This document shows positions 1,415 to 20,181 of a DNA stretch of 20,181 bases, piece after piece. The notes beneath the pieces are model-generated. The model did no database searches and was not told where the DNA came from. It saw nothing but the letters and a program-made list of their open reading frames with translations. Source of the stretch: a virus. Within the stretch, counting starts at the first letter, position 1, and the number at the start of each line of letters is the position of its first letter. The position numbers were made by a program, and so were the translations under genes. Location of the stretch: IMG/VR virus record IMGVR_UViG_3300034954_000558, positions 1-20,181 of that record. One strand, given 5' to 3'.

Positions 1415-1415
1415 A

Positions 1416-1731: not shown

Positions 1732-1742
1732 CAAGTTTTCAC

Positions 1743-4601: not shown

Positions 4602-4643
4602 CTTTTCCTCGTGATGTTGGTTTAATTTTTTATTGTTATAACT

Positions 4644-4672
4644 ATTATATATTAAAAATCAATTTTTGTAAA
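4644..4672 (-). promoter_or_regulatory. Sigma-70-type (early-like) promoter for nrdJ
   Basis: Minus-strand TTTACA (4672-4667), a 17-base spacer and TATAAT (4649-4644). The -35 is embedded in GTGAAAAACTTGTTTACA, one base longer than the motif at 1726-1742. The leader of about 36 bases ends in a GAGGAAAAG ribosome-binding site before the nrdJ ATG. The conserved block begins directly at the stop of the preceding 72-residue gene. Confidence 0.85.
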
Positions 4673-4680
4673 CAAGTTTT

Positions 4681-4899
4681 TCACTCGCCGTCAAAATATT
4701 TTTTTATCATTTCTAATACATCGTCATATTTAGCTATTTCCATCATCTGTTTTTCGAGCTCTTCCATTACTTGAGGATGCTCTCCAATACCAGCTGGATT
4801 ATTCATATACACTTGAACTGTAGCTTTTGCCATGGCAATCTTGCCTTCAGCATGTTTTTTAAGTGCTTTAATCATTTCATTTTCAAAATCAAAATCCAT
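4681..4899 (-). CDS. Conserved small helical phage protein (72 aa)
   Basis: The protein begins MDFDFENEMIKALKKHAEGK and contains NNPAGIGEHPQVMEELE before an acidic and lysine-rich helix ending in YFDGE. I recall close relatives in cyanophages and other marine T4-like phages with the blocks KHAEGKI and NPAGIGEHP; none has a known function to my knowledge. It looks soluble and all-helical, with no signal peptide. AGGAG stands about nine bases before the ATG, and the preceding DUF1353 stop is one base away. It is the last gene before the nrdJ promoter and so probably ends the long late-type operon. I infer a structural or virion-associated role only weakly, from position. Confidence 0.85.
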   Translation of the reverse strand: MDFDFENEMIKALKKHAEGKIAMAKATVQVYMNNPAGIGEHPQVMEELEKQMMEIAKYDDVLEMIKKYFDGE

Positions 4900-4900
4900 T

Positions 4901-5485
4901 TTATTTTTCTCCTACTTTAGCATTGACTTTTCTATGTTTATTCCATGCAACCCATCCACCTATTCGTAAAGCCCAATAAGCAAGATAGTTTAAGAAATAA
5001 AATCCATTGACCTCAATATTAATATCTCTGAATGTTTTATCCATCCACTGTTGAGATTTAATACCTATAGTCTTTCCATTTTTTAACAATAGTGTTTCAT
5101 ACTTATATCCATAATCATGAATAAGTCCACCGATTAACAATACACCGACCGGTGATAAGAATTGAGCTAAGAACTTTGGTACACTTGCACCATCGAACTT
5201 AAACCCTTTTGGTATAACAAAATTTTGTTTATTAATTGAGTAGTTGAAATCTTTCGCAACTTCCCAATGTCTAGTTCCAAATACCCATAACATAAGTGCT
5301 CCCCAGAAACCTTTACCTTTTGTGGCTATTCTGATAGGTTTCATATGAGGATAATCTTTATAAGTAAAATTTACTCTGTTATCTATTTTTTTATCAAATA
5401 AGTTAATAATGAATCCTAAAATGACCAAGACGATAAATACTGCCATTGGCCAAAATTGTTTTGCTAAATCTAAAATAAACTCCAT
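4901..5485 (-). CDS. DUF1353 family protein with N-terminal membrane helix
   Basis: This 194-residue protein starts with a hydrophobic segment (residues 10-30, AVFIVLVILGFIINLF). A DUF1353-like domain follows: IPKGFKFDGASVP at 91-103, SPVGVLLIGGLIHDYGY at 111-127 and a downstream MDKTFRDI (148-155). The His-Asp-x-x-Tyr pattern is the family's hallmark and may form a metal or catalytic site, but I know of no proven activity. DUF1353 proteins are common in tailed phages. Here it directly follows the spanin-like genes and a 48-residue protein, so a cell-envelope or lysis role is a reasonable inference. AAGGAG lies five bases before the ATG. A moderately hydrophobic aromatic segment near 163-181 may also contact the membrane. 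Confidence 0.85.
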   Translation of the reverse strand: MEFILDLAKQFWPMAVFIVLVILGFIINLFDKKIDNRVNFTYKDYPHMKPIRIATKGKGFWGALMLWVFGTRHWEVAKDFNYSINKQNFVIPKGFKFDGASVPKFLAQFLSPVGVLLIGGLIHDYGYKYETLLLKNGKTIGIKSQQWMDKTFRDINIEVNGFYFLNYLAYWALRIGGWVAWNKHRKVNAKVGEK

Positions 5486-5487
5486 TA

Positions 5488-5634
5488 CTACTCCTTACTT
5501 AAAATCCATTTAATCTCATTACTATTATCTATTATAGTTTCTTCAATAGACTCTAATTTTTTTTCTATTTTATCTGTTTTCATCTCATCCCATAACATAT
5601 TAGCAATCAATGAAGCAAAGATCGATTCAAGCAT
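5488..5634 (-). CDS. 48-aa protein in the lysis-like group, unknown
   Basis: The minus strand encodes 48 residues starting MLESIFASLIANMLWDEMKT and continuing as a charged helix with a heptad-like pattern (KIEKKLESIEETI), ending WILSKE. The ATG shares one base with the stop of the o-spanin-like gene (TAATG), and the stop lies two bases before the DUF1353 ATG. Its 3' end also carries the AAGGAG used as ribosome-binding site by DUF1353. The first 15 residues could form a short amphipathic or membrane-touching helix. The tight junctions on both sides make it a credible gene, although I recognise no family. Confidence 0.72.
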   Translation of the reverse strand: MLESIFASLIANMLWDEMKTDKIEKKLESIEETIIDNSNEIKWILSKE

Positions 5635-5993
5635 TATTTTTTATCTTTCGGTTTGACTGCCTCTTCATAATATAATATAACTTCTTTTTGCTGTTCTATA
5701 TATCTTTTTATTTGTTCGAAGTTTAAAGCTAAATTTTTAAATGATTGAGGATCTAATCCATATATTACAAACTCTCCCATACCAGCTTTAACTTTCTTAA
5801 TAACTTCAGGCAGATTTTTTTCAGTTATCACAACCACTTTAACGTCCAACATTTTTATTGGTTTAGTTTTTTGAGCAACTGCGATAGTTGGTGTTATAAC
5901 TTTTTCAACTGTTACAATTTCTTTTTCTGGTTTCCAACTACAACTACTTAGTAGCAGTGTTGATACCACTAAACATTTTGTTAACTTGTTCAT
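5634..5993 (-). CDS. Lipoprotein, candidate o-spanin (outer-membrane lysis subunit)
   Basis: The 119-residue product opens MNKLTKCLVVSTLLLSSCSW. This is a lipoprotein signal peptide with lipobox L15-S-S-C18, so it should be lipidated at Cys18 and sent to the outer membrane. The mature part contains a Val/Lys-rich stretch and a Glu/Lys-rich C-terminus. Its start lies 50 bases inside the end of the preceding gene in another frame, and that gene encodes a membrane-anchored coiled coil. Overlapping i-spanin and o-spanin genes are typical of Rz/Rz1 lysis pairs, which fuse inner and outer membranes at the end of infection. At about 100 mature residues it is long for an Rz1-type subunit. Alternatives are a superinfection-exclusion or other envelope lipoprotein. 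Lipidation is well supported; the spanin role is inferred. Confidence 0.78.
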   Translation of the reverse strand: MNKLTKCLVVSTLLLSSCSWKPEKEIVTVEKVITPTIAVAQKTKPIKMLDVKVVVITEKNLPEVIKKVKAGMGEFVIYGLDPQSFKNLALNFEQIKRYIEQQKEVILYYEEAVKPKDKK

Positions 5994-6318
5994 TTATTCT
6001 CTTTTCTTGACCTACAGGATCCGCAAGACTGTTTTTAACGATGTCTGTTTTAGCTAATAGGTTTGAAATCTTTTTATTATTCTCTTCAGCAATGGATAAC
6101 TTATTATTCAAGTCTTTTGTAAGCTTGATTTGTTTTTCCATATTTTCTTTGAGAGCTTTTATTGTGGAATCTTTTGCCTTGACAGCTACTTCTAACTTAG
6201 CGTTATTATCTCGCAAGACTGCCATACGTTGCATAGTGTCATTATATACAAAATACGCACCATAACCTATTCCACCTAGTATAACTAGGATAAAAAGAAA
6301 AACGTAAATCCTAGCCAT
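5944..6318 (-). CDS. Membrane-anchored coiled coil, candidate i-spanin
   Basis: This 124-residue protein has an N-terminal membrane helix (residues 5-25, VFLFILVILGGIGYGAYFVY), then a long charged coiled coil from about 30 to 95 rich in Lys, Glu, Asn and Leu, and a polar C-terminus. This is the usual architecture of an Rz-like inner-membrane spanin, with the coiled coil in the periplasm. The downstream lipoprotein gene overlaps it by 50 bases, as in classical spanin pairs. Its own start overlaps the preceding basic-protein gene by eight bases. Spanins diverge too much in sequence for a family match by eye, so the call rests on topology and gene order. Confidence 0.78.
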   Translation of the reverse strand: MARIYVFLFILVILGGIGYGAYFVYNDTMQRMAVLRDNNAKLEVAVKAKDSTIKALKENMEKQIKLTKDLNNKLSIAEENNKKISNLLAKTDIVKNSLADPVGQEKRINEQVNKMFSGINTATK

Positions 6319-7111
6319 AATTATCGTCTATGTATTTTCTAAAACGCTTTAGTAATACTGGATGCTTGTCTTTACGCCTTCTCTTGTCGTGAACAGCCGT
6401 TGTTTTAATTCTAGGTCCCATGTTCTTAGTATCTTGAGGAATGCCTGCCATAGCTGTAGTCATCTGTTCGCTTGATGCTTTCGCTTGAGCCATAGCCTCT
6501 GGAGAAGGCGCGCCTTTTTCGCCTTTCTTACGCATACGTTTTCCAGATTTTCTTCTCTGATTAATGTTATGCCATAGGCCTTTATTTTTTTCTTCTATGT
6601 TTTCTTTTTGCATTTCCTTAGTCTTCTTTTTCATTTTATTTATATAAGCTCGGTAGATAGCTGCAGCTGCAGTCTTGCCAGCTACTCTTGCTCTTTGTTC
6701 CATAGCTATTGCAGCTTGTATCTTATGAGCATGTTTTCTACCTGACTTCTTTATTTTAGCCACTGATGCTTTTGCATCAGCCGGAGTTGCAAACTTCAAA
6801 CCGTGAATCGTACCTTTTGGATTCTCATCTGTATATAAATCACTATGTTTATCTGAACCTGCAGGTTGTCCTTTTTTTCTTGGTATTCTTTTTGTAGCCT
6901 CGAACATGTCTGTACTTGGACTCTTACCAGATTGCTTAACAACTTTTAAATCATTGCCTATTAATGGCGAATACTTTTCAGCTGCTTTCTTTGCTCTTGC
7001 TTCTGAGCTATGCATGCTAAACGTGTATCTCGACTTTGGCGCGCCGGGATTTACCACAACGTGAGTATATGGTTTTATTTTACTTCCTTTTTGTCTACCT
7101 GCTACTCTCAT
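6311..7111 (-). CDS. Basic modular phage protein (marine T4-like modules)
   Basis: This 266-residue, Lys/Arg-rich protein looks like a string of separate modules. Residues 1-68 are a small beta-like domain (KPYTHVVVNP, RYTFSMHSSEARAKKAAEKY). Residues 72-168 form a block with RKKGQPAGSDKHSDLYTDEN, GTIHGLKFATPADAKASV and HAHKIQAAIAMEQRARVAGK. Residues 175-211 form a second block with KNKGLWHNINQRRKSGKRMR and KGAPSPEA. I recall both blocks in other marine T4-like phages, sometimes on different proteins, but know no function. Junctions DMFE|AT and NIEE|KN resemble prohead-protease sites. It overlaps the upstream gene by ATGA. The high positive charge suggests DNA contact inside the head, which is inference. 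Confidence 0.85.
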   Translation of the reverse strand: MRVAGRQKGSKIKPYTHVVVNPGAPKSRYTFSMHSSEARAKKAAEKYSPLIGNDLKVVKQSGKSPSTDMFEATKRIPRKKGQPAGSDKHSDLYTDENPKGTIHGLKFATPADAKASVAKIKKSGRKHAHKIQAAIAMEQRARVAGKTAAAAIYRAYINKMKKKTKEMQKENIEEKNKGLWHNINQRRKSGKRMRKKGEKGAPSPEAMAQAKASSEQMTTAMAGIPQDTKNMGPRIKTTAVHDKRRRKDKHPVLLKRFRKYIDDNYG

Positions 7112-7689
7112 CTTATTAACTCGCCGGCAGTTACATATACTTGTTTATTTGTATTAACATGAATCGCCTCATAAATATCTACACCAAATACTTCTCCAAC
7201 TGGAAAAGACTCGTTAGTTATTCTTATCTGATCTTTTGGCCAAACAAGTTCATCACAAGTTTTATTTAATAATTTAGGAGTTGAAACTCTATATATCCCA
7301 GGAGTTAACTGCTTATCATCTAGTAAAAACCATTCGTTCTTTTCATTTAAAAAATCTAGTACATCTACATTAAGTTCTTTGCAGATTTTTTCTAATCCTT
7401 TTGTTCCGACTTTTTCTTTAATGAGATAGAGCGCGCTCGCAAAAGATCCAAGTCGAGATCCACCCCCTGGAATTTTTGCAACGAGCCTTTTGATGTTAGC
7501 GGCAAGGCGAATAAAAGGAGTATAAGCAGACTTTTTTTCATCAGTATCCAGCTTCACATTCTTATTTCTCTTTCCGTTCTCGTCTATAATCCCTTGTTTA
7601 TAGGCGTCCCAGTCTTTCCAATCCATAACCATCATTCTTATGAATCGAAAAGTATATCCTAAGTCTGCTGCTCTTTTTAATATACCCAT
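7108..7689 (-). CDS. Conserved T4-like phage protein, function unknown (193 aa)
   Basis: The protein opens MGILKRAADLGYTFRFIRMM and contains WDAYKQGIIDENGK, AYTPFIRLAANIKRLVAKIP and GGGSRLGSFASALYLIKEK. The C-terminal half is less charged and beta-rich, ending NTNKQVYVTAGELIR. I recall homologues in cyanophages and rhizobial T4-like phages with the same PGG-S-x-x-x-S-[FY]-A-[AS]-AL-[FY]-LIKE core, where they are annotated as hypothetical or structural. The next gene downstream overlaps it by ATGA, and the upstream gene stops within its ATG (TAATG). Pairing with the 122-residue protein upstream appears to be a conserved gene order, so the two may act together. No enzyme motif or membrane segment is evident. 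Confidence 0.88.
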   Translation of the reverse strand: MGILKRAADLGYTFRFIRMMVMDWKDWDAYKQGIIDENGKRNKNVKLDTDEKKSAYTPFIRLAANIKRLVAKIPGGGSRLGSFASALYLIKEKVGTKGLEKICKELNVDVLDFLNEKNEWFLLDDKQLTPGIYRVSTPKLLNKTCDELVWPKDQIRITNESFPVGEVFGVDIYEAIHVNTNKQVYVTAGELIR

Positions 7690-8057
7690 TAAATCTTCCT
7701 TAATACGTTAACTACTTCAGGATCCATTGTAATTCCAGTGTATTGATCATTTCTAATATAATTTAAGAATATCAAAAATGGTTTTATAACCGGCCAATGG
7801 TTATTATCTAGCTTAAATTCTAAAATATTTAGAGCAGCTTCAATACCAAACACATTAAAAACCACTATCAAATGATTAAGAATTAGTCTTTCAGGTAACT
7901 CATCAGTTTCTAAATAACGATTCAATAATCTTTTAATATACTTAAACCTTTTTAAGTCTTCTTGAAACTCGTCTGCATCAACTAACTTATTAGTCCTATA
8001 ATGATTAGCCGCGTACAAGAAAAGGTTCTTATCATTTAACTCTTTAAATCTTAACAT
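7689..8057 (-). CDS. DUF7207-like conserved phage protein (122 aa)
   Basis: Key blocks are MLRFKELNDKNLFLYAANHY, FQEDLKRFKYIKRLLNRYLE, ERLILNHLIVVFNVFGIEAA and PVIKPFLIFLNYI. These match a widespread small protein of T4-like phages that I recall as DUF7207, with a signature of DL-x-RFKYIKRL followed by LNH-x-I-x-x-x-NVFG. The predicted fold is all helical and soluble. The stop shares a base with the start of the 193-residue gene (TAATG), giving tight coupling. No strong Shine-Dalgarno sequence precedes the ATG, although an AT-rich stretch containing TATAAT lies directly before it. Function is unknown; its conservation in virion-gene neighbourhoods suggests a head- or tail-related role. Confidence 0.88.
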   Translation of the reverse strand: MLRFKELNDKNLFLYAANHYRTNKLVDADEFQEDLKRFKYIKRLLNRYLETDELPERLILNHLIVVFNVFGIEAALNILEFKLDNNHWPVIKPFLIFLNYIRNDQYTGITMDPEVVNVLRKI

Positions 8058-8075
8058 AAAATTATATATTAAGAT

Positions 8076-8405
8076 TTAAATGACTTCTTTGAGTTCCTCA
8101 ATCAAATCAGATTTATTTTTTCTTCGATCAAGTTCGATACCGTGTTCTCTACCAAGAGCTTCCAGTTCTAACTTAGTCATCGAATCCAAATCAGTGGCTT
8201 CATCTCCGAACCATTCTTCTTTTGCTTCTTCAGCTGTAGTTGGTGATTCGGTTAAAGTTTGAATTTCTGGTTCTACACCAAAGAACTCGTCTATCTGAGA
8301 CTTTGATATTTTTTGAGCTACTAGTAACTCTCCAGTTCTTTTATTCTTCCAACCTTGTGGAGTTGGTATCGCGCCTTTCGCCCAATTTGGTGGTTTTATA
8401 GCCAT
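8076..8405 (-). CDS. Small phage protein with C-terminal HeH/SAP-like domain (109 aa)
   Basis: The N-terminus, MAIKPPNWAKGAIPTPQGWK then NKRTGELLVAQKISKSQIDE, is a Trp/Pro-rich segment that I recall from many marine T4-like phages. A Glu/Thr-rich linker covers about residues 45-70. The C-terminus (DLDSMTKLELEALGREHGIE, then DRRKNKSDLIEELKEV) has the two-helix pattern of HeH/LEM or SAP-like domains, which bind DNA or proteins. The acidic, compact design contrasts with its very basic neighbours, so it could partner them. The gaps on either side are short (12 and 18 bases). The exact role is unknown. Confidence 0.85.
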   Translation of the reverse strand: MAIKPPNWAKGAIPTPQGWKNKRTGELLVAQKISKSQIDEFFGVEPEIQTLTESPTTAEEAKEEWFGDEATDLDSMTKLELEALGREHGIELDRRKNKSDLIEELKEVI

Positions 8406-8417
8406 TATATTTTTCCT

Positions 8418-9437
8418 TTACTTATAAATTTCAGGGTGCATTGTCTTGTGATCCCCATCATAATGTTTCTTTAGATACTTTTGCAAGTCTCTCTTCTTAC
8501 CAGTAGCATCTGTACCAATTTTTTTCTTCTTAAGAGTAATGTTATGCTTCTTTTCAAAAGAACCAGCTTTACCTGTCATATGATCTATATCAACAGTATG
8601 AACTTTGTCTAAGTCTTCAACCATGTTTATGGCACTTAAAAGTTGATCCATAGTCTTTCCAAATATGCCATACTTATCATGTTTCTCAACACCTTCCATC
8701 TTAGCTGTTGGATCTTTTATTGGAGTCGCGCTTGGCTTGATATTTCTATCACCACTTGCTACGTTATCTCCGCCAGATCTTTTCTTTGCTTGTTTCATCT
8801 TTTTGTCGGCTTTATCTTTTTCGTTAGCCTCTAAAGATTTTTTAACGTCTAAGTCTGCAGCTCCAGATTTAATTTTATCTTGAGCTCCCTTAGCCATATC
8901 CATAGCTCCTTTAGAAGACTGACTCTTATCGAGAATGCCTTCCGGAGCAGTAGCGCTCTTATAATGAGATTTTCTATCTCCTTCGAGCATTGAAATTAAT
9001 TTTTCTCTAAAAGTCATTGTACTCTCTTTATGTGCGTGTTTATCTGATAATTTTTTTGCTGCATTATAAGCAGACTTATATTTATCACTATGGGCACCAT
9101 GTTTATTTAAAGTTTGACCGGCATTATCAACTGCCTTTCTAACTTTCATATGATCCATATGATCTTTGCCAGAATGCTTCTTATCAAGTCTTTTAAGATT
9201 ACTCATTGCTTGATTGTGTTTGACAATATGCATACGCTGTTGATCCATAGTAACTGCTTCTTTTTGATCTGCAATTTTAGTTGCAGTGTCTTTTTTCATA
9301 GTCACCGGATGAGTCTTTCCACCAAAGTTGAATTTCTTCTTACCGGCTTTTGCGGCTGCAGCTGCTGCGCCATGGAAGGCGGTTCTTTCATTTGCTGGAA
9401 TCTCCTCAGGTATATGATACTTTATACTTTCTTCCAT
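8418..9437 (-). CDS. Basic Lys/His-rich modular protein, candidate internal head protein
   Basis: I start this gene at the ATG at 9437 (339 residues), because AAAGGAGA lies directly upstream at good spacing. An ATG at 9458 adds seven residues but overlaps the previous gene. Blocks in order: ERTAFHGAAAAAAKAGKKKF with FNFGGKTHPVTMKKDTA (about 18-51); a His/Lys-rich helical stretch (60-137); MTFREKLISMLEGDRKSHYK then TAPEGILDK (141-171); a low-complexity Lys/Asp/Ala stretch; and a C-terminal part ending DGDHKTMHPEIYK. The MTFREKLISMLEGD block looks like the leader seen at the N-terminus of other proteins here, but is internal. A late-type promoter lies about 75 bases upstream. Packaging in the head is inferred from composition and modules. 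Confidence 0.82.
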   Translation of the reverse strand: MEESIKYHIPEEIPANERTAFHGAAAAAAKAGKKKFNFGGKTHPVTMKKDTATKIADQKEAVTMDQQRMHIVKHNQAMSNLKRLDKKHSGKDHMDHMKVRKAVDNAGQTLNKHGAHSDKYKSAYNAAKKLSDKHAHKESTMTFREKLISMLEGDRKSHYKSATAPEGILDKSQSSKGAMDMAKGAQDKIKSGAADLDVKKSLEANEKDKADKKMKQAKKRSGGDNVASGDRNIKPSATPIKDPTAKMEGVEKHDKYGIFGKTMDQLLSAINMVEDLDKVHTVDIDHMTGKAGSFEKKHNITLKKKKIGTDATGKKRDLQKYLKKHYDGDHKTMHPEIYK

Positions 9438-9448
9438 GGGATTCTCCT

Positions 9449-9730
9449 TTACATCCATACGTGAGCCACGTAGGCTCCAAGTACAGCAACAATTAATGCC
9501 ATACCAATTCTATTTATAATACCAACAGTTCTTGAGTTATCATCTACTGTTTTCTGTATCTCGTCTAATTTTACTGAGAGCTTATTCAGTCTTTCTCTCA
9601 TGTTCTCGTGGTCGTCTTGTAATGCTATAATCTTCTCCTCTGCTCTTGCTAAAGAAATCATAGCGTCTGCGAGCTTATCAATCTTCTGCTCTATTCTATC
9701 TAATCGTGATTCAGTAGTTTCTTGAACCAT
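9449..9730 (-). CDS. Coiled-coil protein with C-terminal membrane anchor (93 aa)
   Basis: Residues 5-68 form a long amphipathic coiled coil (SRLDRIEQKIDKLADAMISL and further heptads through LNKLSVKLDEIQKTV). A single membrane helix follows at 73-92 (INRIGMALIVAVLGAYVAHV) and the protein ends WM. This tail-anchored layout resembles the haemolysin XhlA family that assists phage holins, though no signature residue proves it. The ATG shares a base with the stop of the 46-residue gene (TAATG). A late-type promoter for the next gene lies within its coding region. Possible roles are a lysis accessory or another inner-membrane scaffold. The topology is clear; the role is not. Confidence 0.82.
   Translation of the reverse strand: MVQETTESRLDRIEQKIDKLADAMISLARAEEKIIALQDDHENMRERLNKLSVKLDEIQKTVDDNSRTVGIINRIGMALIVAVLGAYVAHVWM
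9510..9520 (-). promoter_or_regulatory. T4-type late promoter inside the coiled-coil gene
   Basis: Minus-strand ATTATAAATAG with the TATAAATA late element, identical over 11 bases to the elements at 400-410 and 17949-17959. It lies about 75 bases upstream of the ATG at 9437, so it could give the basic-protein gene and the following structural-type genes an extra late start. It overlaps codons for the coiled-coil protein's membrane region, so its activity is inferred. Confidence 0.5.
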
Positions 9731-9870
9731 TATCTTTTTCCTTGGCCTCTATACTTTTTAAAGCTTCTTCTCTTATGTTTATTCATAGTTGAAAATATTG
9801 GTTTGCGTCCAATAGTAGTACCATGCTTCTTTGGTTCGTGTACTGATACTGAACGAAATAACTTTGCCAT
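9730..9870 (-). CDS. Tiny basic conserved phage protein (46 aa)
   Basis: The minus strand encodes 46 residues starting MAKLFRSVSVHEPKKHGTTI, with GRKPIFSTMNKHKRRSFKKY and ending RGQGKR. The block KHGTTIGRKP followed by NKHKRRS-x-KKYRGQG is one I recall as a conserved tiny protein of marine T4-like phages. It is extremely basic, so nucleic-acid binding is likely. The ATG at 9870 shares a base with the stop of the 56-residue membrane gene, and the stop shares a base with the start of the coiled-coil gene (TAATG at both ends). This locks it into the operon and strongly supports that it is translated. Function is unknown. Confidence 0.85.
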   Translation of the reverse strand: MAKLFRSVSVHEPKKHGTTIGRKPIFSTMNKHKRRSFKKYRGQGKR

Positions 9871-10040
9871 TACTCAGCTTTCCAAATTGTCCATATTCCA
9901 TAAGCTATCGCTAAACCTGCAGCAATCTTTGCCAATGGTGATAAAAATAATATCATAAGACCAAGAGCAATACAAACTGCTCCGTCTAAAGATGTTCTTT
10001 CTTTAATTCTATTATTAATCCAGTTTTTAATCACTACCAT
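9870..10040 (-). CDS. Small membrane protein, holin-like (56 aa)
   Basis: The product begins MVVIKNWINNRIKERTSLDG and then has two hydrophobic segments, AVCIALGLMILFL (about 21-33) and AKIAAGLAIAYGIWTIW (about 37-53), split by a short SPL turn. It ends KAE. A small hairpin membrane protein with a charged N-terminus fits a holin or a structural membrane protein; I see no family signature. I start it at the ATG at 10040, where AAGGAG lies upstream and the overlap with the preceding stop is small. A GTG two codons later has better spacing from AAGGAG, and an ATG at 10058 would add six residues. Its separation from the spanin-like genes weakens the holin reading. Confidence 0.75.
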   Translation of the reverse strand: MVVIKNWINNRIKERTSLDGAVCIALGLMILFLSPLAKIAAGLAIAYGIWTIWKAE

Positions 10041-10348
10041 TTCTCCTTGTCTGCCCAATACGCTGCTGACATTTTACCTTTAGCTATGTTTTTAGCGTGT
10101 CTGGCTTTAAATGATTTACGTCTTGCCTTTTGTCTGTCAGACTCTCCTTTTTTGGGAGCTCCTGCAGTACTTACTCCTTGCTGACCAAATCTAATAGTCT
10201 TAACTTTATCACCATCTTTAGCGACTACGATATGACTACTGGTCGGATGATTTGGCGTACGCTTTGCTTTATTAAATCCTGATACTCCAGCTCTCTTGAG
10301 CCTTGGATCTTTTTCTTCTATAAATTTTTTAAATCTATCCAAACTCAT
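10034..10348 (-). CDS. DUF6321-like basic phage protein (104 aa)
   Basis: Blocks: MSLDRFKKFIEEKDPRLKRA, GVSGFNKAKRTPNHPTSSHI, VKTIRFGQQGVSTAGAPKKG and RRKSFKARHAKNIAKGKMSA before AAYWADKEKW. The core IRFG-x-x-G ... RRKSFKARHA ... YWADK-x-KW matches what I recall as DUF6321, common in cyanophages and related phages, with no known function. The protein is strongly basic. Its first 12 residues, MSLDRFKKFIEE, also fit the shared leader pattern seen in the large basic proteins upstream. It overlaps the preceding gene by 14 bases. A virion-internal, nucleic-acid-binding role is inferred. Confidence 0.88.
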   Translation of the reverse strand: MSLDRFKKFIEEKDPRLKRAGVSGFNKAKRTPNHPTSSHIVVAKDGDKVKTIRFGQQGVSTAGAPKKGESDRQKARRKSFKARHAKNIAKGKMSAAYWADKEKW

Positions 10349-11267
10349 GACCTGCTATCCTTTTCATTTGTTTATTAAATTCTGCTTGATCTGGTTTTGA
10401 CTTGTATAGTTTTTTAGTAAGTGCGCTGTTTTTCTTACCTTTAATTCTGTACTTATAACCTTTTTCTTTATGTTCAGGATCTGTAGTTTTTACTAATCTT
10501 CTTTTATACTGAGCTTCATAAGACTCTGGTCCTTTTGGAGCATCAGTGCTTCCTCTCATTCCTTCTTTTACATTTTCTCCGGGTGTAATCTTTTTCATTA
10601 ATCTTACAGATTCTGGTGAACCATAATCGTACTTATACTCACTCTTTATTTCTTCTCTTCCCTGAGCTTTATCTCTAAAAGCTTTTCTCTTTTTTGCTTT
10701 TGTAGTTCTTTCAACGTCTGTAATCATAGAAGGTTGCTTAACTATCTTTCTTAGTTTTTGTAATAATTGCCCTGGAGTCTTGTCGTCCATGTACATGTCT
10801 GGTAAACCAGCAATTGAAACTTTATAACTACCTTCTGTTGTAATTCCTAAAGCTCTTTTTGCTAATTGTTTTTTAGTGTCATCACGCTTTGCGAGTGCTG
10901 TATGGCCTCTTGCTCTTTTTGCTATTTCTTTTGCGCGTTTACCTGTATCTCTCATCCAATCAGGTCTTGCTTTTTTACTTGGTCCTCTTAAACCACGAGC
11001 TATCTTTGCTTTAGCTTTTAATCTCATAGATAGCTCTGGTATGTTTCTATCTAGTTCTGGCTTCGCTCCGTTTCTATTAAGTTGAGAGAATAACTTTAAA
11101 TTATTACCAGCTAGCTTAGCTTCTTTTTGACTATCACGTTTATCTAGATACGCTGCAATAGCCATTTGATGTCTCTTCTCTTTAGACTTACCTTTAAACT
11201 GTGGAGCCTTAGACTTTCTAAAGTCTTTTACGTAGTCTCCGGCTGTTGCATCTTTTCCTAATGGCAT
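10335..11267 (-). CDS. Basic three-module phage protein
   Basis: This 310-residue Lys/Arg-rich protein joins at least three blocks that I recall on separate proteins of marine T4-like phages. Residues 11-44 are DYVKDFRKSKAPQFKGKSKE followed by KRHQMAIAAYLDKR. Residues 147-204 contain YKVSIAGLPDMYMDDKTPGQ, LLQKLRKIVKQPSMITDVER and FRDKAQG. Residues 211-230 are YKYDYGSPESVRLMKKITPG. Basic helical linkers (90-140) and a basic tail (250-310) fill the rest. Possible protease-like junctions are TTE|GS near 145 and VKE|GM at 233-235. Unlike most neighbours it lacks the leader-like N-terminus. The start shares a base with the previous stop (TAATG). No catalytic motif is evident. Confidence 0.85.
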   Translation of the reverse strand: MPLGKDATAGDYVKDFRKSKAPQFKGKSKEKRHQMAIAAYLDKRDSQKEAKLAGNNLKLFSQLNRNGAKPELDRNIPELSMRLKAKAKIARGLRGPSKKARPDWMRDTGKRAKEIAKRARGHTALAKRDDTKKQLAKRALGITTEGSYKVSIAGLPDMYMDDKTPGQLLQKLRKIVKQPSMITDVERTTKAKKRKAFRDKAQGREEIKSEYKYDYGSPESVRLMKKITPGENVKEGMRGSTDAPKGPESYEAQYKRRLVKTTDPEHKEKGYKYRIKGKKNSALTKKLYKSKPDQAEFNKQMKRIAGHEFG

Positions 11268-11488: not shown

Positions 11489-12567
11489 TTCATACTCCCT
11501 ACTTTTTTACGAGTACCAAATGCTTTAGTATCGCCTTTATCCATCATGCCTTTCATACCGGCTGCTGGATCTGCTTTACCGTGATAGCCTTGTGCGTACC
11601 CTGGTTTTAATTTTTTCATCTTACCTTTTTTAATAAAGTCGTCTATAGCTTTTCTTTCAGCGTCAGAAGTCGTAGCTTCAGTCTTTTTAAATCTTTTACC
11701 AATCGGATAAGACAAAGGACCCATAGATGTTATTTTAGTAGCTCTATCGATACCTGCAACGCGTTTTGCTGCTTTGCGTTCAGGACTTTTCTTATAGTCT
11801 TTAGTTGGTCCACCTAATCGGCTTATTGCATCTGCAGTACCTTGTTGTTGACCTTTATGATAAACATCTCTTGAAGCCTTACCAATGTATCTCATCGCAA
11901 GACCTTTTGATATTTCTTTTACTGTGCCCTCCGATTTAATGTTGAGTTTAGTGAGTTTAGTGTGCAACTTCAGTTTCGGAAAACTATGCTTAGGCGTACC
12001 CGTCTTAAATTTTCCAGCGTCTTTAGTTGTTCCAATAGCTGTCTGACTTAATGAATGAGCATCTTTAGCAGCTTTCTTATATTTTGATTGGTTAAGAGAT
12101 GAAGCAGCATCACGAGCTCGCATATGAGCAGCATGTGCTTGTTTATGAATGTCGATAGCGCGATAGTGCATATCTTCGTTATCATTATTATGTTTTCCAC
12201 TATCTCCTTCACTTTTATGACGCTTAGCGTGGCTAGCATGAGCCTTTGCCATGTCGTCATGATAAGAACTTTTTATCGGATGATACTCTGCTTCATTAAC
12301 TGATTCTTTTTTAGATTTCTTCTTACCCTTACCACTAAGATCAGAATCGGCACCGTAATAAGTACCTTTACCTTTTCCTATGTACGAGTTGACTCGAGCC
12401 ATTCCCCACTGCTGAGGAGTTGTCCCCGGTCTATGTCCAGTTTTCCAAGCTGCCATTCCTCTGTTATATACTTTCTTTAAAGTACCATAAGATATACCAG
12501 ACTTAGCTGCTTTTTTCTTGAGTCCTTCGTTTTCGAGTAACTCTTCGAACGTTGAAAATTTAAGCAT
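11485..12567 (-). CDS. DUF5824-like multi-module basic protein
   Basis: This 360-residue protein starts with the leader-like MLKFSTFEELLENEG. Residues 16-77 match DUF5824 as I recall it: LKKKAAKSGISYGTLKKVYN, then RGMAAWKTGHRPGTTPQQWG and ARVNSYIGKGKG. After VNE|AE (90-93) comes a His/Ala/Lys-rich helical module (95-180). After VKE|IS (216-219) comes KGLAMRYIGKASRDVYHKGQ and a KRVAGIDRATK motif. After KTE|AT (296-299) comes AERKAIDDFIKKGKMKKLKP, then YAQGYHGKADPAAGMKGMMD and GTRKKVGSM. Each junction resembles the (I/L/V)-x-E prohead-protease site. The gene overlaps the nucleotidyltransferase gene by eight bases. Modules are likely separate folded units; functions are unknown. Confidence 0.87.
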   Translation of the reverse strand: MLKFSTFEELLENEGLKKKAAKSGISYGTLKKVYNRGMAAWKTGHRPGTTPQQWGMARVNSYIGKGKGTYYGADSDLSGKGKKKSKKESVNEAEYHPIKSSYHDDMAKAHASHAKRHKSEGDSGKHNNDNEDMHYRAIDIHKQAHAAHMRARDAASSLNQSKYKKAAKDAHSLSQTAIGTTKDAGKFKTGTPKHSFPKLKLHTKLTKLNIKSEGTVKEISKGLAMRYIGKASRDVYHKGQQQGTADAISRLGGPTKDYKKSPERKAAKRVAGIDRATKITSMGPLSYPIGKRFKKTEATTSDAERKAIDDFIKKGKMKKLKPGYAQGYHGKADPAAGMKGMMDKGDTKAFGTRKKVGSMK

Positions 12568-13744
12568 TTGTTACACCCCTGTTTTTTAATTTTCTAATTT
12601 TGGCTCGATCTAACATGCGTGCATGTTTCATCTTGTCAACCATTTTTTCTCTTTCGATTTTCTTTTTAGCTATAGCAACTGCATCTTCTCCGTACATTCT
12701 TCTGTACTTCAATGTATGTTTACTTGGCTTAGTTTTAGCTGTCTTATCGCCCGGAGCTGGTTTATAAGCTGCAGGATTATTATCAGCCATTTTTGATGTT
12801 CTATTAAAATGTGAAAGTCTTTTCTTTTTGGTAGACTTTGCTAAACCTTTAAAATATACAGAAGGCTGACTTCCTTTAGCCTTCTTAACGTCTTTGTCTT
12901 GTGCTACTTCTTTTTTTCTTTCTTTTTCTACAAGCTCGATAGAATCAAGCCACTTTCTGTAGTGCTTACCGTCTTGCTCAATAATGACATAATTACTTCC
13001 AAGACTGGTAACACGAGCGAGTTGGTCACTGCCCACGACAGTAACACTATCACCAATATCAAACAGATGTCCTTTAACATATGCCTCCCTTTTCTCGGAG
13101 ACAGGCTCGAAATGTAACTTATTAAAATATGTCTTTTGTTCTTTTAGTCCCATACCTCTTCTTACTTCATTATATACCTTCTTTGCGTCTGCATTTGAAA
13201 CATTCCGTGGCAGCCCTTGTGAGAATTGTGTAAAGTCTCCTTCACTCGCCAAATTTCTCATCTTAGACGCTGACATTCCACTAACGTCGTCAGCATCCGG
13301 GTCTCTGTCACCGGCTGAAATTACGTTGATTTTATTGAAGTTATATAGACCGTGTCTACCTTTAACTCCATTATATTTTTTTAGTAGTGTGTTAAACTCG
13401 TTAACTCTATCTGATCCTACTACCATTGAAACATTCTTATATCCATCATTAAACATTTCAGTAACTGCGTCAAAAACATTCTTTACTTTCTTATCAAGCA
13501 TCACTTGTCTCGCATGCTTGGGAAAGAATTTTCTGACAGCTTTTACTTTTGTCATATAGTTCAATGGATTTTTTTTCTTATCTACTGATTGTGACAGGTA
13601 AATTCTATAAGAGTTTTTACCTGATTTCTTAGCTAATTCATTCATTAGTTTTTCATGGCCAGTAGTCGGAGGATTCATACGACCAAACGTAAAGAATACG
13701 GTCCTTTCCTCTTCTATCAAATAACTTTTAAATGAACTTATCAT
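12560..13744 (-). CDS. NMN-adenylyltransferase-like nucleotidyltransferase with basic C-terminal modules
   Basis: Residues 14-175 look like a cytidylyltransferase-type nucleotidyltransferase. FGRMNPPTTGHEKLM (20-34) carries the (H/T)xGH motif as T27-x-G-H30, VVGSDRVNEF (108-117) is the conserved strand, and GMSASKMRNLA (156-166) corresponds to the ISxTxxR motif that binds the nucleotide phosphates. The closest familiar group is nicotinamide-nucleotide adenylyltransferase, which makes NAD from NMN and ATP, but pantetheine-phosphate relatives cannot be excluded. Ahead of it is the leader-like MISSFKSYLIEEE. Behind it come a small KOW-like beta module (229-271), a module with SVYFKGLAKSTKKKRLSHF and TKPSKHTLKYRRMYGE (295-352), and a very basic tail. 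The fusion of enzyme, leader and basic modules suggests a virion-carried enzyme, which is inference. Confidence 0.85.
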   Translation of the reverse strand: MISSFKSYLIEEERTVFFTFGRMNPPTTGHEKLMNELAKKSGKNSYRIYLSQSVDKKKNPLNYMTKVKAVRKFFPKHARQVMLDKKVKNVFDAVTEMFNDGYKNVSMVVGSDRVNEFNTLLKKYNGVKGRHGLYNFNKINVISAGDRDPDADDVSGMSASKMRNLASEGDFTQFSQGLPRNVSNADAKKVYNEVRRGMGLKEQKTYFNKLHFEPVSEKREAYVKGHLFDIGDSVTVVGSDQLARVTSLGSNYVIIEQDGKHYRKWLDSIELVEKERKKEVAQDKDVKKAKGSQPSVYFKGLAKSTKKKRLSHFNRTSKMADNNPAAYKPAPGDKTAKTKPSKHTLKYRRMYGEDAVAIAKKKIEREKMVDKMKHARMLDRAKIRKLKNRGVTNA

Positions 13745-15261: not shown

Positions 15262-16487
15262 CAGTTCCTCCCTGGTTTATCCCATCCTTTTAATATATCT
15301 GGCGAAAAGTTTGCGTATGAGAACTCCATACGGTCCACAATTTTCACGGCGTCACCACCAAGCTTGTCAATAGCTACATAACCTTCTTGACCTGTGGTTT
15401 GATAACCATTTCTAGTTTTCAAAAAAGTTTCTGTACTATTTAACTTATTAAGTATATTTATAAGTTTTAATTTCGCTAGAACAATAGATTTTTGTAATTC
15501 AAACATCATTTGTAAACTTATTTTATTTTGCGGTGAGAAGAATTTTAATATTTCATCTAATTTTTTCTGTTGAGCAGACTTTCCTTTTTCAGTCTTTCTT
15601 TTATCTATCTCTTTCTGAAACTTTTGTTTTATATGCGATATTAACTTCGTAACGTGGGTTTTGGTATTACCAATGACTTGGCCTTTTCGTACAAAAGTAT
15701 TATTAAACGTTTCAATAAGTTGAGCAATGTCTTGGTTAGCCTCGAGAGTACGTAGGGTACTACCAGAAATTTTATTAAAAATCCTGCCAGCGTTACTAAG
15801 ATGTGCATTGACGTCCTCCGTATCTGTCTTTGTCATAGTAAATCTTGTCATATCTCTTAACATTGCGTCTTGCGACCAGACGTTTTTACTATTACGAAAC
15901 TTACTAATATCGACTCCATAAGATGCTTTCATAGTTTCAAAAGAATTTCCAGTATAAGTGGTATGCCACACTATTCCAATCTTTGCGGCTTTGACTTTCT
16001 TTGCTGCCGCAGTTCCAGAAGGTATTGCGTAAACTATAGTGTTTGGATGAAAGGTTACATACGTCTTGCCTTTTATCTTTTTTGTCTTAATATCGCTCGT
16101 ATCAAATAAAAAGTCGCCTTGTATAACTCCTTTGATCCCGAGATCTGGTAAGTACTTGAGAGCGTTCTTTAATTTTAAATTGAGATCACCATCAGTATCA
16201 GCATCGATATCAGCGTTATTCTTGTAAACTTTTGGAGTGGCGTTAAATATCCCTTTCTTAGCAACAAAAAATTTACCGTCACGAGGATCAGTGCCACAAA
16301 AAATAGCTGGTGCTCCATCCCATTTAACGCTAACGTTTCCATCTTTGACTCCTCCTAGCATGTCTCTAAGAGAACGTAGAGCAAGTATAGCTTGTCTCGT
16401 TCCGTCGACTCCACCATATAGGACTTTGTCCTCGATATGAGTCATATGAGTATTTTTCTGTTCTGATATAAATTCTATAAAATTCAT
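15261..16487 (-). CDS. DUF6267-like protein with nucleotidyltransferase/ligase-like motifs
   Basis: This 408-residue protein starts with the leader-like MNFIEFISEQ. It then has THIEDKVLYGGVDGTRQAIL, SVKWDGAPAIFCGTDPRDGK with K55 in KWDG, FFVAKKGIFN, and KGVIQGDFLFD. Near the C-terminus are EGYVAID (368-374) and AVKIVDRMEFS (380-390). The order KxDG, GDFLF, EGxV and VKIV matches motifs I, III, IV and V of covalent nucleotidyltransferases (ATP-dependent DNA or RNA ligases and capping enzymes), with K55 as candidate adenylylated lysine. I recall this family from cyanophages as DUF6267 without a proven activity. The gap between motifs III and IV is unusually long and helical. A ligase-like activity is a reasoned guess; the gene itself is certain. 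Confidence 0.84.
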   Translation of the reverse strand: MNFIEFISEQKNTHMTHIEDKVLYGGVDGTRQAILALRSLRDMLGGVKDGNVSVKWDGAPAIFCGTDPRDGKFFVAKKGIFNATPKVYKNNADIDADTDGDLNLKLKNALKYLPDLGIKGVIQGDFLFDTSDIKTKKIKGKTYVTFHPNTIVYAIPSGTAAAKKVKAAKIGIVWHTTYTGNSFETMKASYGVDISKFRNSKNVWSQDAMLRDMTRFTMTKTDTEDVNAHLSNAGRIFNKISGSTLRTLEANQDIAQLIETFNNTFVRKGQVIGNTKTHVTKLISHIKQKFQKEIDKRKTEKGKSAQQKKLDEILKFFSPQNKISLQMMFELQKSIVLAKLKLINILNKLNSTETFLKTRNGYQTTGQEGYVAIDKLGGDAVKIVDRMEFSYANFSPDILKGWDKPGRN

Positions 16488-17944
16488 TATACAAACGCCT
16501 TTACGTAAACTGATGAATCTTCTGTTTGCGAACCTGCAATGTTAAATACATTTGTTGCAAACTGATCTCTATTTTTTTTGTTAGCTTTCATTATTGCATG
16601 ACATACATAAGTTGCCGCAAGTTTAGAATGTACGTCTGCAGCTTTTCTTGTTTTAGGATAATCATAAAAATCTTTTTCTTGAATATTTGTATCTGTTTCT
16701 TGAACCATCGACCAAAACTTTTTAGTGTCAGCTCCAATTTTACCTGTGCTTAGTTCAGTATGAATCTTTCTCGACTGAATTACTATTTTTTGATTTTCAG
16801 GTAAATTCTTTGCATTTAAGAATTCTTTTGCTGCATACTGTTGTTGTTTATAACCAACCTTTCCACCTCTTGCTTTTCCACCTAGTATTTCCATATTGAC
16901 TGCAACGAAGTCACTAAAAGATCTAAAGTCGAGTTGTTGGCCATCGATAAAAAGTGTCGCACTTTTACTACTCCAGAATTTTTTCTTTGCTAAAGTTAAT
17001 CTATCAAACTTTCGTTGTTTTTCTGGAAGTCTATCTAAATTATATACAGTTAATTTAATGCTGCCTTCGTCTTTAAATTCTGGTGCGATCTTAAGAGATA
17101 TTGGTACTATGTCTCTTTTTCTAAATGCTTCTGACAGACTAATATTTAATGCAGCAACTGAATGATCTTGTAATACCTTTTTAATGTCCACATTTTTCTT
17201 AATAGCATAGATGTCACCTGGGTTCCATTTATCATTACTTAAATCAGGTTTACCTTCAGCTGAATATGCATTCTTTTTTAGTTTATAAATCTCAGTCATT
17301 TTACCTTTACCACGAAATAACTCATGATCTTTAGTAACGTATTCTTCTTTAATTAATTTTTTACCTATCATATATCCTGATCGATGCCATTGAGGTGCTA
17401 GTGTTACTGCCTCCATTATATCTTTAAATTTTTTATCTACCTTTACATTATTATATGCAGTTTCAAGTACATTTTCTTGTGTAAAAAAATCATATTTTTT
17501 ATTAGTACCGTGCTTCAATAAAGCATCTAACATAACACATTGCAAAGATTCACCTTTAGCTGTGGCACCAGACATTCCTCCACCTGTTGGTTGACCGCCA
17601 AAATGTACAGATTTTGCAATCGATGTTATCGGTACTTTACCTACAGATGTGTCAAGTTCTATTGTTGGTAACTCTTTTAAAGCTTTATTTCTCGCAAGAC
17701 CTGTTTTATTTAATATTACGTTTTCGAAATCTTTTATCACTTTCTTATTTTCAGCGGTGTCCTTAACTATCATCTCTTCTTGATTTATTTTAGATTTAAA
17801 ATGAATGATCTTAATCTTATCTTTCATCGCTGTTCTTAAATTATCAAATCTTTCGGGTCTTTTATCCCATTCGGCAGGCGTCAGATTCGTTGAAAATAAC
17901 ACAGCTTCCTCCAAGTATTTCGTGTATGACTTAAACCTTAACAT
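16487..17944 (-). CDS. Large conserved phage protein, unknown, first gene after terminator and late promoter
   Basis: The 485-residue protein begins MLRFKSYTKYLEEAVLFSTN, with the shared leader pattern and a possible LEE|AV protease site. A Gly-rich loop (GGQPTGGGMSGATAKGESLQ) lies about a third of the way in, followed by a helical segment, KWNPGDIYAIKK near the middle, and a C-terminal helical region ending SSVYVKAFV. The loop plus K-W-N-P-G-D-I-Y is a combination I recall from large proteins of cyanophages and other T4-like phages, with no assigned function. The TATAAATA promoter lies so close that the predicted transcript would begin at the ATG itself, and no Shine-Dalgarno sequence is visible, so a leaderless mRNA is possible. 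Its stop shares a base with the next start (TAATG). Confidence 0.85.
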   Translation of the reverse strand: MLRFKSYTKYLEEAVLFSTNLTPAEWDKRPERFDNLRTAMKDKIKIIHFKSKINQEEMIVKDTAENKKVIKDFENVILNKTGLARNKALKELPTIELDTSVGKVPITSIAKSVHFGGQPTGGGMSGATAKGESLQCVMLDALLKHGTNKKYDFFTQENVLETAYNNVKVDKKFKDIMEAVTLAPQWHRSGYMIGKKLIKEEYVTKDHELFRGKGKMTEIYKLKKNAYSAEGKPDLSNDKWNPGDIYAIKKNVDIKKVLQDHSVAALNISLSEAFRKRDIVPISLKIAPEFKDEGSIKLTVYNLDRLPEKQRKFDRLTLAKKKFWSSKSATLFIDGQQLDFRSFSDFVAVNMEILGGKARGGKVGYKQQQYAAKEFLNAKNLPENQKIVIQSRKIHTELSTGKIGADTKKFWSMVQETDTNIQEKDFYDYPKTRKAADVHSKLAATYVCHAIMKANKKNRDQFATNVFNIAGSQTEDSSVYVKAFV

Positions 17945-17948
17945 ACTT

Positions 17949-17959
17949 CTATTTATAAT
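17949..17959 (-). promoter_or_regulatory. T4-type late promoter heading the basic-protein operon
   Basis: Minus-strand ATTATAAATAG contains the TATAAATA late element. It is located between the terminator and the 485-residue gene, which is the expected place for an operon promoter. With T4 spacing (element at about -13 to -6) transcription would begin at position 17944, exactly the A of the ATG. The same 11-mer occurs twice more on the same strand. Confidence 0.72.
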
Positions 17960-17970: not shown

Positions 17971-18008
17971 TAAAAAAGCGCCTCAGACTCGCATTGAGGC
18001 GCTTTTTA
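17971..18008 (-). terminator. Strong intrinsic terminator after the Na/Pi cotransporter gene
   Basis: On the minus strand an eight-pair stem, GCGCCTCA (18002-17995 read as complement) with TGAGGCGC, encloses a nine-base loop and is followed by six T. An A-tract before the stem extends pairing to about 13 bases and makes the hairpin nearly symmetrical, so it might also stop plus-strand transcripts. It lies about 20 bases past the stop of the gene ending at 18029 and immediately before the late promoter. Confidence 0.92.
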
Positions 18009-18028: not shown

Positions 18029-18496
18029 TTAAAATCTTCCGAGAAGTCTTGCGATGTGATGTACCCAAGGTAAGAGCATTACTGCCATAAAGAGATTTGC
18101 GCCACTATGAGCTAATGCTATTCGTAGAGTATCGCCTTTCGGCATACCGTCTGATACAAAGAAACCTGCGAGCCATATCGTACCAGTAGTTCCTATATTT
18201 GCTCCAAGAACTGCTGCTATAGCTGCTGGCAGTGGGAGAGCTCCACTTGCAACGAGAGCTATGATTGCAGTGGTAGATAACGATGAAGATTGCCAGAGTA
18301 ACGTCATGACAATTCCACCTATAAACATATAAATTGGATTACCTAGAAAGAAGTTTAAGTGATCTAAGTTTCCCATGGATTTCATTCCACCTGAAAACAT
18401 TTTAAGTCCTATGTAGAATACAACCAATCCTACGAGTGCCGTGATTACGGGATTACCTAGTTCCATTTTGCTCACCTTTTTAATTAATTCGTTCAT
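18029..18496 (-). CDS. Half-size Na+/phosphate cotransporter-like membrane protein
   Basis: The 155-residue protein has hydrophobic segments at about 15-34, 54-72, 77-97, 101-113 and 127-147. It contains LLWQSSSLSTTAIIALVASG (66-85) with the QSSS motif, and VLGANIGTTGT (96-106), followed by RIALAHSGANLF. These are signatures of the Na_Pi_cotrans (NptA/SLC34-type) repeat. Full-length members carry two inverted repeats with two QSSS motifs; here only one is present, so the protein would have to dimerise or work differently. No PhoU-like tail is present. AGGTGAG before an ATG at 18466 makes a start ten residues later possible. Phosphate uptake genes are a known theme in marine phages; transport and ion use here are inferred. 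Confidence 0.86.
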   Translation of the reverse strand: MNELIKKVSKMELGNPVITALVGLVVFYIGLKMFSGGMKSMGNLDHLNFFLGNPIYMFIGGIVMTLLWQSSSLSTTAIIALVASGALPLPAAIAAVLGANIGTTGTIWLAGFFVSDGMPKGDTLRIALAHSGANLFMAVMLLPWVHHIARLLGRF

Positions 18497-18507: not shown

Positions 18508-18669
18508 TTATCGACCGCGCCTCTTGAATGTTACAGTTTTGTTAAACCTTTTCTTTTGAGTCGTCTTTTTTCTTCTTTCAGTTTCGCGATTACGAGGATC
18601 GTACATCTCGTAACCACGAATACCGTTTTCTTTAGCCCATGCGGCTATCATTTCTGGTTTGTGTTTCAC
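18508..18669 (-). CDS. Small basic protein with GTG start (53 aa)
   Basis: The minus strand encodes 53 residues, MKHKPEMIAAWAKENGIRGY then EMYDPRNRETERRKKTTQKK and RFNKTVTFKRRGR. The first half looks like a helix-turn unit and the second half is nearly all basic, which suggests nucleic-acid binding. The GTG at 18669 overlaps the preceding TGA as GTGA, and GAGG stands about eight bases upstream, so I prefer it to the ATG six codons later. It fills what would otherwise be a 170-base gap between the glycine-zipper gene and the Na/Pi gene. I recognise no family. Confidence 0.72.
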   Translation of the reverse strand: MKHKPEMIAAWAKENGIRGYEMYDPRNRETERRKKTTQKKRFNKTVTFKRRGR

Positions 18670-19112
18670 TTATTAAACCTCACTGTGTAAGTTTTTCCGT
18701 CATAATTAAAAGTTATAGTTGAGTGCGAGTATATAGTTTCCATTGACTCTTTATAACGTGTTATCTTGTTACATACGAGTTTAGTACCATTACTAGCAGT
18801 ACTATTTTGATTGCCAAGAATACCACCAATAATTGCACCAGCGGTAGCACCGTCAGGCAAGTCTTTTGTAATATTTTGACCGATAGCACCACCGATGATC
18901 GCTCCTAAGATTGTATCTGCAGTTTTATCTCCTGATACATTTCTTTCAGAACAAACTTCAACAACCTGTGGTGTTCTTTTAATAATAGTCTTTTGGTGAT
19001 CATTAACTACTGCAGCATGTGGCTGAGTAGCAAATGCACTCTTACCAGTTACAAAGCCACCGACAAACGCTAGTGCCCATGTAACAGCTGTAATTTTTAT
19101 AAAAGTATTCAT
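18666..19112 (-). CDS. Exported glycine-zipper (2TM-type) protein
   Basis: The 148-residue protein begins with a signal peptide, MNTFIKITAVTWALAFVGGF, with probable cleavage after SAFA-T near residue 29. The mature part has a Gly-zipper hairpin: ADTILGAIIGGAIGQNI (about 65-81) and AGAIIGGILGNQ (about 91-102), separated by TKDLPDG. Two Cys residues, one before (EVCSE) and one after (LVCNK), could form a disulfide. This matches the glycine-zipper 2TM family of bacterial outer-membrane proteins (Rickettsia 17-kDa antigen-like). Phage copies are known to me, but their role is not. A change to the host envelope, such as superinfection exclusion, is plausible. The start overlaps the upstream gene by ATGA. 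Confidence 0.85.
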   Translation of the reverse strand: MNTFIKITAVTWALAFVGGFVTGKSAFATQPHAAVVNDHQKTIIKRTPQVVEVCSERNVSGDKTADTILGAIIGGAIGQNITKDLPDGATAGAIIGGILGNQNSTASNGTKLVCNKITRYKESMETIYSHSTITFNYDGKTYTVRFNK

Positions 19113-19297: not shown

Positions 19298-19488
19298 TAT
19301 TTCCCTCCTTCGACTTTGCATATTGGGTTTATTGATGTACCGTCGATATAGTCTCTACCGGTATAAGTTCTCGTAACGACTTCTTTTACAAGCATGCCAT
19401 TACGTTTTCTATATGTTATGAGCTCTCTAGACAGGACACCGTCACTGTCTAGGAGATCAAAAGCTTGTTTAAGCGGACCGTCAGTCAT
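19297..19488 (-). CDS. Small conserved phage protein (63 aa)
   Basis: The protein begins MTDGPLKQAFDLLDSDGVLS and contains LVKEVVTRTYTGRDYIDGTS followed by INPICKVEGGK. I recall the block VTR-x-[FY]-x-x-x-DYIDS-x-x-x-x-P in small proteins of cyanophages and other T4-like phages, with no known function. It is a soluble 63-residue protein without metal or catalytic motifs. Both ends share a base with neighbouring genes (TAATG), so it is translated in step with the DUF932 gene upstream. Confidence 0.78.
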   Translation of the reverse strand: MTDGPLKQAFDLLDSDGVLSRELITYRKRNGMLVKEVVTRTYTGRDYIDGTSINPICKVEGGK

Positions 19489-20181
19489 TACGCATCCGCC
19501 ATTTCAAGAGCTGTTTTAAGAGCATCTCTTTTTCTGGCTTGATCGCCAGCAAACCATGAAGAGTACATTCTGTTATCAGCATTTGCACCTTTCAAGTGGT
19601 CAGTTACGAAAGTAACTGAGTTAAAAGCTTGCCACCAAGAGCCTTCGGCATACTTTGAACCCGGTTGAGTATTGATATTATCGTAAGCTAACTTCGCGTT
19701 ACGTGATAACGTATCAACTGATAGAGGTTGATTTTGAACTCTCTTATCAGCAGTTCTTGGGAACACAGTATTATAATACTCTATAAGTTTATCTATACTA
19801 TATCTCTTTGAACCGAGAAATTCAGCCATTTCTTTATACTGCTCAAGTTTTGCAGTAGCGATACCAAGAGCTTTCTTGACTTCGTGAGCGTCGAACTCGA
19901 CTCTGTGGCCGACTCTTACAGCTCTTTCAGCTTCCATCTCAAGAGATAAAGATAAAGTATTGTTACAAACAACTCTGATAGGAGTAAACCTCACGTCAAT
20001 TGAATGACCATACCTATGTGGATTTGAAAACAATAAGTACGAATCGACTTGATCACCGCCAAAAAGATCGAATGACTCTTTAACTTTAGCGAGAGCCCAT
20101 ACTATCTGTCCATTTCTTAATGAACCTGCTGTATGCATCTCCATATCACCAGCGAGAACGTACTCACTGAAAAAGTTAAAG
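19488..20181 (-). CDS. DUF932 family protein, 5' end cut by the window
   Basis: An ATG exists at 20144, but the frame stays open to the window edge (FNFFSEYVLAGD precedes it), so the N-terminus lies outside. The visible part has HTAGSLRNGQIVWALAKVKE, YLLFSNPHRYGHSIDVRFTP and IRVVCNNTLSLSL, followed by a helical C-terminal region ending ALKTALEMADA. The core R-x-T-P-[IV]-R-V-V-C-x-N-T-L is the hallmark of DUF932, widely found in phages and plasmids and present in many copies in marine viruses. Its role is not known to me. It shares its stop with the next gene's start (TAATG). Confidence 0.92.
   Translation of the reverse strand, partial: FNFFSEYVLAGDMEMHTAGSLRNGQIVWALAKVKESFDLFGGDQVDSYLLFSNPHRYGHSIDVRFTPIRVVCNNTLSLSLEMEAERAVRVGHRVEFDAHEVKKALGIATAKLEQYKEMAEFLGSKRYSIDKLIEYYNTVFPRTADKRVQNQPLSVDTLSRNAKLAYDNINTQPGSKYAEGSWWQAFNSVTFVTDHLKGANADNRMYSSWFAGDQARKRDALKTALEMADA

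Follow-up and report, generated by a model that had tools for sequence, protein, structure and literature searches.

A conserved single-repeat relative of sodium-phosphate cotransporters in marine viruses, and its possible role as a dimeric half-transporter

The PF02690 family includes SLC34 and the NptA (TIGR01013), YjbB-type (TIGR00704) and NF037997 proteins. SLC34 has been modelled with two inverted repeats and a QSSS motif in each, and a version based on VcINDY contains eight spans and two hairpins; residues that serve as Na+ ligands have been modelled as well (PMC6325988). Eight spans and two hairpins correspond to three spans and one hairpin per core repeat. The viral protein described here shares with this family a homologous repeat and the motifs QSSS and G-x-N-I-G-T. 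In contrast to known members, which have two inverted repeats per chain, it consists of one repeat in 155 amino acids.

EmrE (SMR), Fluc/CrcB and DUF606 have folds that are unrelated to that of the viral protein. In these systems one short chain adopts two orientations and forms an antiparallel pair (PMC3962082), an arrangement that is proposed here for the viral protein. Inverted-repeat transporters are thought to be derived from a single-repeat ancestor by duplication and fusion, and antiparallel homodimers have been described as rare (PMC3962082). A phage precedent for two nearby starts in a membrane-protein gene is the lambda holin/antiholin pair S105/S107, where the longer form is likewise more positive and the choice of start changes the N-terminal topology via one added positive residue (PMC9636201), although protein and role are unrelated to those considered here.

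Eight HMO-2011-type marine phage genomes, from uncultured marine podoviruses, have been reported to contain PF02690 genes, and a role in phosphate uptake was proposed (PMC9038755). Pfam family, marine setting and proposed role are as in the present case, whereas the passage concerned is silent on repeat number, starts and topology, and the likeness is one of description. No paper on a single-repeat form, on two starts or on antiparallel pairing for PF02690 was found in the open-access literature. New here are a putative internal start with a conserved Shine-Dalgarno-like site and a basic N-terminal extension that appears to be coding.

A single PF02690 repeat in a phage contig

The window, i.e. 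the whole stretch of DNA that was analysed, is a virus record of 20,181 bases, and the PF02690 match was recovered in this record at 18143-18418 on the minus strand. The match covers residues 27-118 of an open and complete reading frame (18029-18496, minus strand), which encodes 155 amino acids when read from its first methionine, M1. A Pfam search with the protein returned this one match only (E 3.9e-16, 59.7 bits, gathering cut-off 29.1). QSSS (residues 69-72; 18281-18292, minus strand) and GANIGTT (residues 98-104; 18185-18205, minus strand) each occur once, which confirms the single repeat described in the first-pass annotation. The same holds for its description of an intact gene with its own strong terminator: 3' of the frame, at about 17973-18007 on the minus strand, lies a predicted intrinsic terminator with a 13-bp stem and a T-tract (-24.2 kcal/mol over 70 nt, z = -5.15, none of 200 shuffles equally stable). 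A simple terminator scan missed this stem, probably because its loop has 9 nt. A PHROG search assigned no PHROG to the window protein.

By sequence, the window is part of a contig of a T4-like marine phage. In a protein similarity search, its DUF6267 protein was closest to proteins of T4-like marine phages and others, with C48C1 at 65%; further relatives were found in Stenotrophomonas phage DLP_6, Methylophilales phage Melnitz, Pelagibacter phage HTVC008M and many cyanophages. C48C1 and Melnitz are classified under Kyanoviridae.

The gene directly upstream of the transporter gene (18666-19112, minus strand) encodes a 148-amino acid protein that matches a glycine zipper (PF05433, E 5.1e-6) and has relatives near the single-repeat gene in 15 loci. 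A DUF932 protein is encoded at 19488-20144 (minus strand, E 2.9e-31), and related frames lie about 1 kb upstream of the single-repeat gene in 15 loci. The window also encodes a ribonucleotide reductase-like protein of 738 amino acids (2385-4601, minus strand; phrog_367, E 8e-102) and a cytidylyltransferase-like protein (12560-13744, minus strand; phrog_3041, E 2.9e-77). The T4 late promoter consensus TATAAATA is present at 17950-17957 on the minus strand, immediately upstream of the gene at 16487-17944. Five such late-promoter-like sites were counted in the window, all on the coding strand, which is no clear excess over chance, since 16 of 100 shuffles reached the same number.

An auxiliary metabolic role, put forward in the first-pass annotation, stays plausible and has a published counterpart in the proposal for HMO-2011-type phages (PMC9038755), but among the neighbour clusters inspected, in which names were judged from sequence only, no phosphate gene was recognised.

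Spread of the viral form and its relation to cellular transporters

The survey of the single-repeat form that had been suggested along with the first annotation found it on many viral contigs: four overlapping scans yielded at least 577, 597, 595 and 591 confirmed matches. The loci kept from these scans comprise 290 reading frames, which represent 148 distinct genes as some contigs were fetched repeatedly, and every one is single-domain. This excludes the possibility that the second repeat was freshly lost by a frameshift in this isolate. The 148 relatives are about 145-165 amino acids long and 60-99% identical. A second PF02690-type gene per locus was absent from the sets checked, and a partner half was also sought within the same viral record: each of 36 records, which include the window and contigs of 328 (the longest), 177, 134 and 123 kb, contains exactly one PF02690 match, so that no viral partner half was seen.

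In a diverse alignment, 87 of 87 members match PF02690 at E <= 0.001. Among them S70-S72 as well as G98, A99, N100, G102, T103 and T104 are invariant, and Q69 is conserved in at least 90%. Differences within the gene body amount to 0.40-0.51 at codon position 3 versus 0.04-0.06 at position 2. Taken together, the analysis supports a genuine, intact and conserved single-repeat relative of Na+/phosphate cotransporters that is widespread in marine viruses.

A scan of viral contigs for two-repeat forms, which reaches the relatives of only one cellular subgroup, gave 43 pattern matches and no confirmed case. The window protein matched none of 50,697 cultured or annotated phage records at E <= 0.01, and plasmids that were searched contained no relative. 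With a relative (locus L084, see below) as query and E <= 10, only 13 weak matches to phage records were obtained, in unannotated records. OR849875.1, OR844989.1, OR848285.1 and similar unannotated entries with weak PF02690-like matches are named as Staphylococcus or Listeria phages and may contain bacterial DNA.

When the family profile was compared with the PDB, only SLC34A2a was found (9z60-9z66, E 1e-19), and both of its repeats were matched. The QSSS and GxNIGT regions align with both repeats of 9z60, and the QSSS alignment was also seen with a single sequence. The scores against the three NCBIfam models are all below the curated cut-offs (48.9 vs 210.1, 46.8 vs 50 and 35.4 vs 306.15). 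An alignment of five cellular proteins shows an invariant QSS in repeat 1 and varied residues before SS in repeat 2; conversely, GAN is strict in repeat 2 only and varied in repeat 1. The viral repeat combines QSSS and GANIGTT, as would be expected of a single chain that has to fill both positions. By alignment, Q69, S70, S71, T103 and T106 occupy the positions of Na+ ligands modelled in SLC34 (PMC6325988), and they are invariant or nearly so. Homology suggests phosphate as the substrate. AlphaFold predictions reached a pLDDT of 58 (41 sequences) and 65 (87 sequences), too uncertain to use, and a fold search with the second of these low-confidence models matched no transporter.

Cellular genome contigs were scanned with strict viral patterns, which a distant cellular single-repeat form could escape. 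The scan returned a single locus, L084, on a contig that was binned with a Chloroflexi metagenome-assembled genome. Its protein is 99% identical to that of a viral contig (L085) and its neighbours appear phage-like by eye, so the contig is taken for phage DNA. Reading frames that resemble isocitrate lyase (713-1990) and IMP dehydrogenase (3976-4959), named by eye from their translations, were seen in positions 1-10450 of this locus. Within 151 genomes of this one phylum, 30 had a PF02690 match, always in frames of at least 355 amino acids except for that of L084 itself (165 amino acids). The ancestral-type half considered in the first-pass annotation is not established by these data: a single-repeat cellular relative was found in these scans only on the phage-like L084 contig, so that the viral form may be either ancestral or derived. 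The viral profile covers columns of about 9-116 when aligned with repeat 1 of cellular two-repeat proteins (ending at about 110-116), and nearly its full length, about 17-154, with repeat 2 of several of them. The latter would also suit a derivation from a fused gene.

Two putative start codons and charge bias

In the window, M1 lacks a Shine-Dalgarno site, whereas the internal methionine M11 (ATG at 18464-18466) is preceded by the in-gene Shine-Dalgarno-like site AAAAAGGTGAG (18471-18481, minus strand), which is predicted from sequence and from conservation of the K7 codon. Thus, the start codon is uncertain, and a short form of 145 amino acids (18029-18466, minus strand) is likely also made. 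The M11 ATG is near-invariant among relatives with the extension, where it stands just before an [ED]xxNP motif with a purine-rich site upstream, and ATG and site are present in both main N-terminal types. Among representatives under 90% nucleotide identity, a Shine-Dalgarno-like energy of -3.3 or below was found for 85% of M11 starts; the share was 37% among 621 other in-frame ATGs within these genes and 34% among the upstream (long) starts. The L139/L111 lineage, which is without this ATG, has a TTG at the preceding codon, and AGGAG lies upstream of that TTG.

Of 71 KV-type genes, 65 use AAG for K7, and the tree shows 3 changes in this codon. By comparison, G makes up 14-34% of the other variable synonymous A/G columns (K32, K39 and Q69), which changed 6-11 times. 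The bias persists among representatives under 80% identity, where AAG is found in 19 of 22, against a share of 31% of the lysine codons in the long reading frames of the loci. Randomisation of synonymous codons over all representatives, whose rows are related, gave only a modest shift (mean -4.8 vs -3.05, median p 0.28).

An untranslated extension was considered at first and then rejected on the basis of codon-position patterns. Within the extension, substitutions are biased to the third position, and the pattern becomes non-coding further upstream; Leu4 is invariant, although 43% of comparisons show a difference at positions 1 and 3 of its codon. These patterns indicate that the basic extension before M11 is protein-coding too. 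Constraint on the extension at the protein level, together with the conserved synonymous position of K7, suggests that both starts are retained. A few relatives have the short start only (L142, L137, L149/L150, L159, L160 and L228), and two starts are therefore not essential to the family.

Charge bias was calculated by counting K and R on the two membrane sides, with the repeat topology borrowed from published SLC34 models (PMC6325988). Under this topology, the mean bias is +2.96 for the long form (n=73) and -2.96 for the short form (n=69). The window shows +1 and -2, respectively, and long forms of clade 2 are strongly biased, mostly +3 to +5. For comparison, the range listed for dual-topology proteins is -2 to +1 (PMC3962082). 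As a control, the same segments were scored in ten cellular two-repeat proteins; repeat 1 ranged from -1 to -5 and repeat 2 from -1 to +4, mostly opposite as expected. The control is imperfect, because the repeat-2 value is 0 or nearly so in three of the ten and -1 in one. The charge analysis is exploratory, with segments, thresholds and hypothesis picked on the same data, and the dual-start and charge ideas both arose from these same sequences after several thresholds and clades had been tried.

Possible modes of action

As the half is conserved and has remained intact, it may pair with a second copy of itself in the opposite orientation. Its best-supported function would be that of a half-transporter that needs a pair to work, most simply an antiparallel pair with itself, and the 'minimal dimeric transporter' that the first-pass annotation had listed among its options is probably the best reading. 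The gene product would represent a stand-alone repeat unit of the SLC34/NptA/YjbB sodium-phosphate cotransporter fold. By homology, it is predicted to have three membrane spans and one re-entrant hairpin, which would place its two ends on opposite sides of the membrane. Two oppositely inserted copies would rebuild the inverted two-repeat transporter, with QSSS and GANIGTT provided by each copy. In a second and weaker step, the long form with its basic N-terminal extension would favour an N-in orientation and the short form N-out, so that both orientations could come from a single gene. Such a pair would import phosphate with sodium during infection. We infer dimerisation, antiparallel assembly, transport, the substrate and orientation by start choice; the last is attractive in view of the phage precedent S105/S107. 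An antiparallel dimeric half-transporter, with start choice helping to set orientation, is the best explanation, which we hold tentatively as it falls somewhat short of probable. The complete chain, in which two starts yield N-in and N-out forms that pair into a working sodium-phosphate cotransporter from one unfused repeat, is rather unlikely.

An antiparallel homodimer could also form without a role for start choice, if the internal ATG is minor or a relic, or if M11 is the main start, with mixed orientation resulting from a weak charge bias or from selection by the partner. Relatives with the short start only, the better Shine-Dalgarno site of the internal start and, under the borrowed topology, window values that fall within the dual-topology range (PMC3962082) are consistent with this. 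It is nevertheless unlikely, given that the extension is constrained at the protein level, the internal site is conserved even where a change would be synonymous, and the clade-2 long forms are so strongly biased. Quite unlikely is a modifier that pairs with, replaces or blocks half of the host Na+/phosphate transporter or of another host membrane protein: only one half is found per virus, and both halves of cellular transporters are homologous to it, but 60-99% identity across varied viral contigs and two near-invariant motif regions look more like a self-contained active site.

It is improbable that the protein kept the repeat fold but lost phosphate transport and now moves a different anion, leaks ions or plays a structural part in infection. 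The near-invariant residues at the modelled Na+ ligand positions (PMC6325988) argue against such a loss, which would agree with a substrate assignment that derives from homology only, with inspected neighbour clusters devoid of recognised phosphate genes and with a holin as the only topology-switching dual-start precedent met (PMC9636201). Decay or truncation of a two-repeat gene is a hardly credible origin, and as a recent event in this isolate it is refuted. The nearly full-length match to repeat 2 of several cellular proteins would fit a remnant, but the gene is intact in 148 distinct versions with a strong third-position bias, it has its own terminator, and the one limited scan of viral contigs found no two-repeat form.

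If a single-repeat protein with the SLC34 fold is this widespread, it would offer a directly testable model of such transporters before fusion, or after a reversion to the unfused stage. For the question of how one gene supplies both orientations, the paired starts would point to a simple solution. The family would also give an indication of the number of marine phages that might alter phosphate uptake by their hosts.
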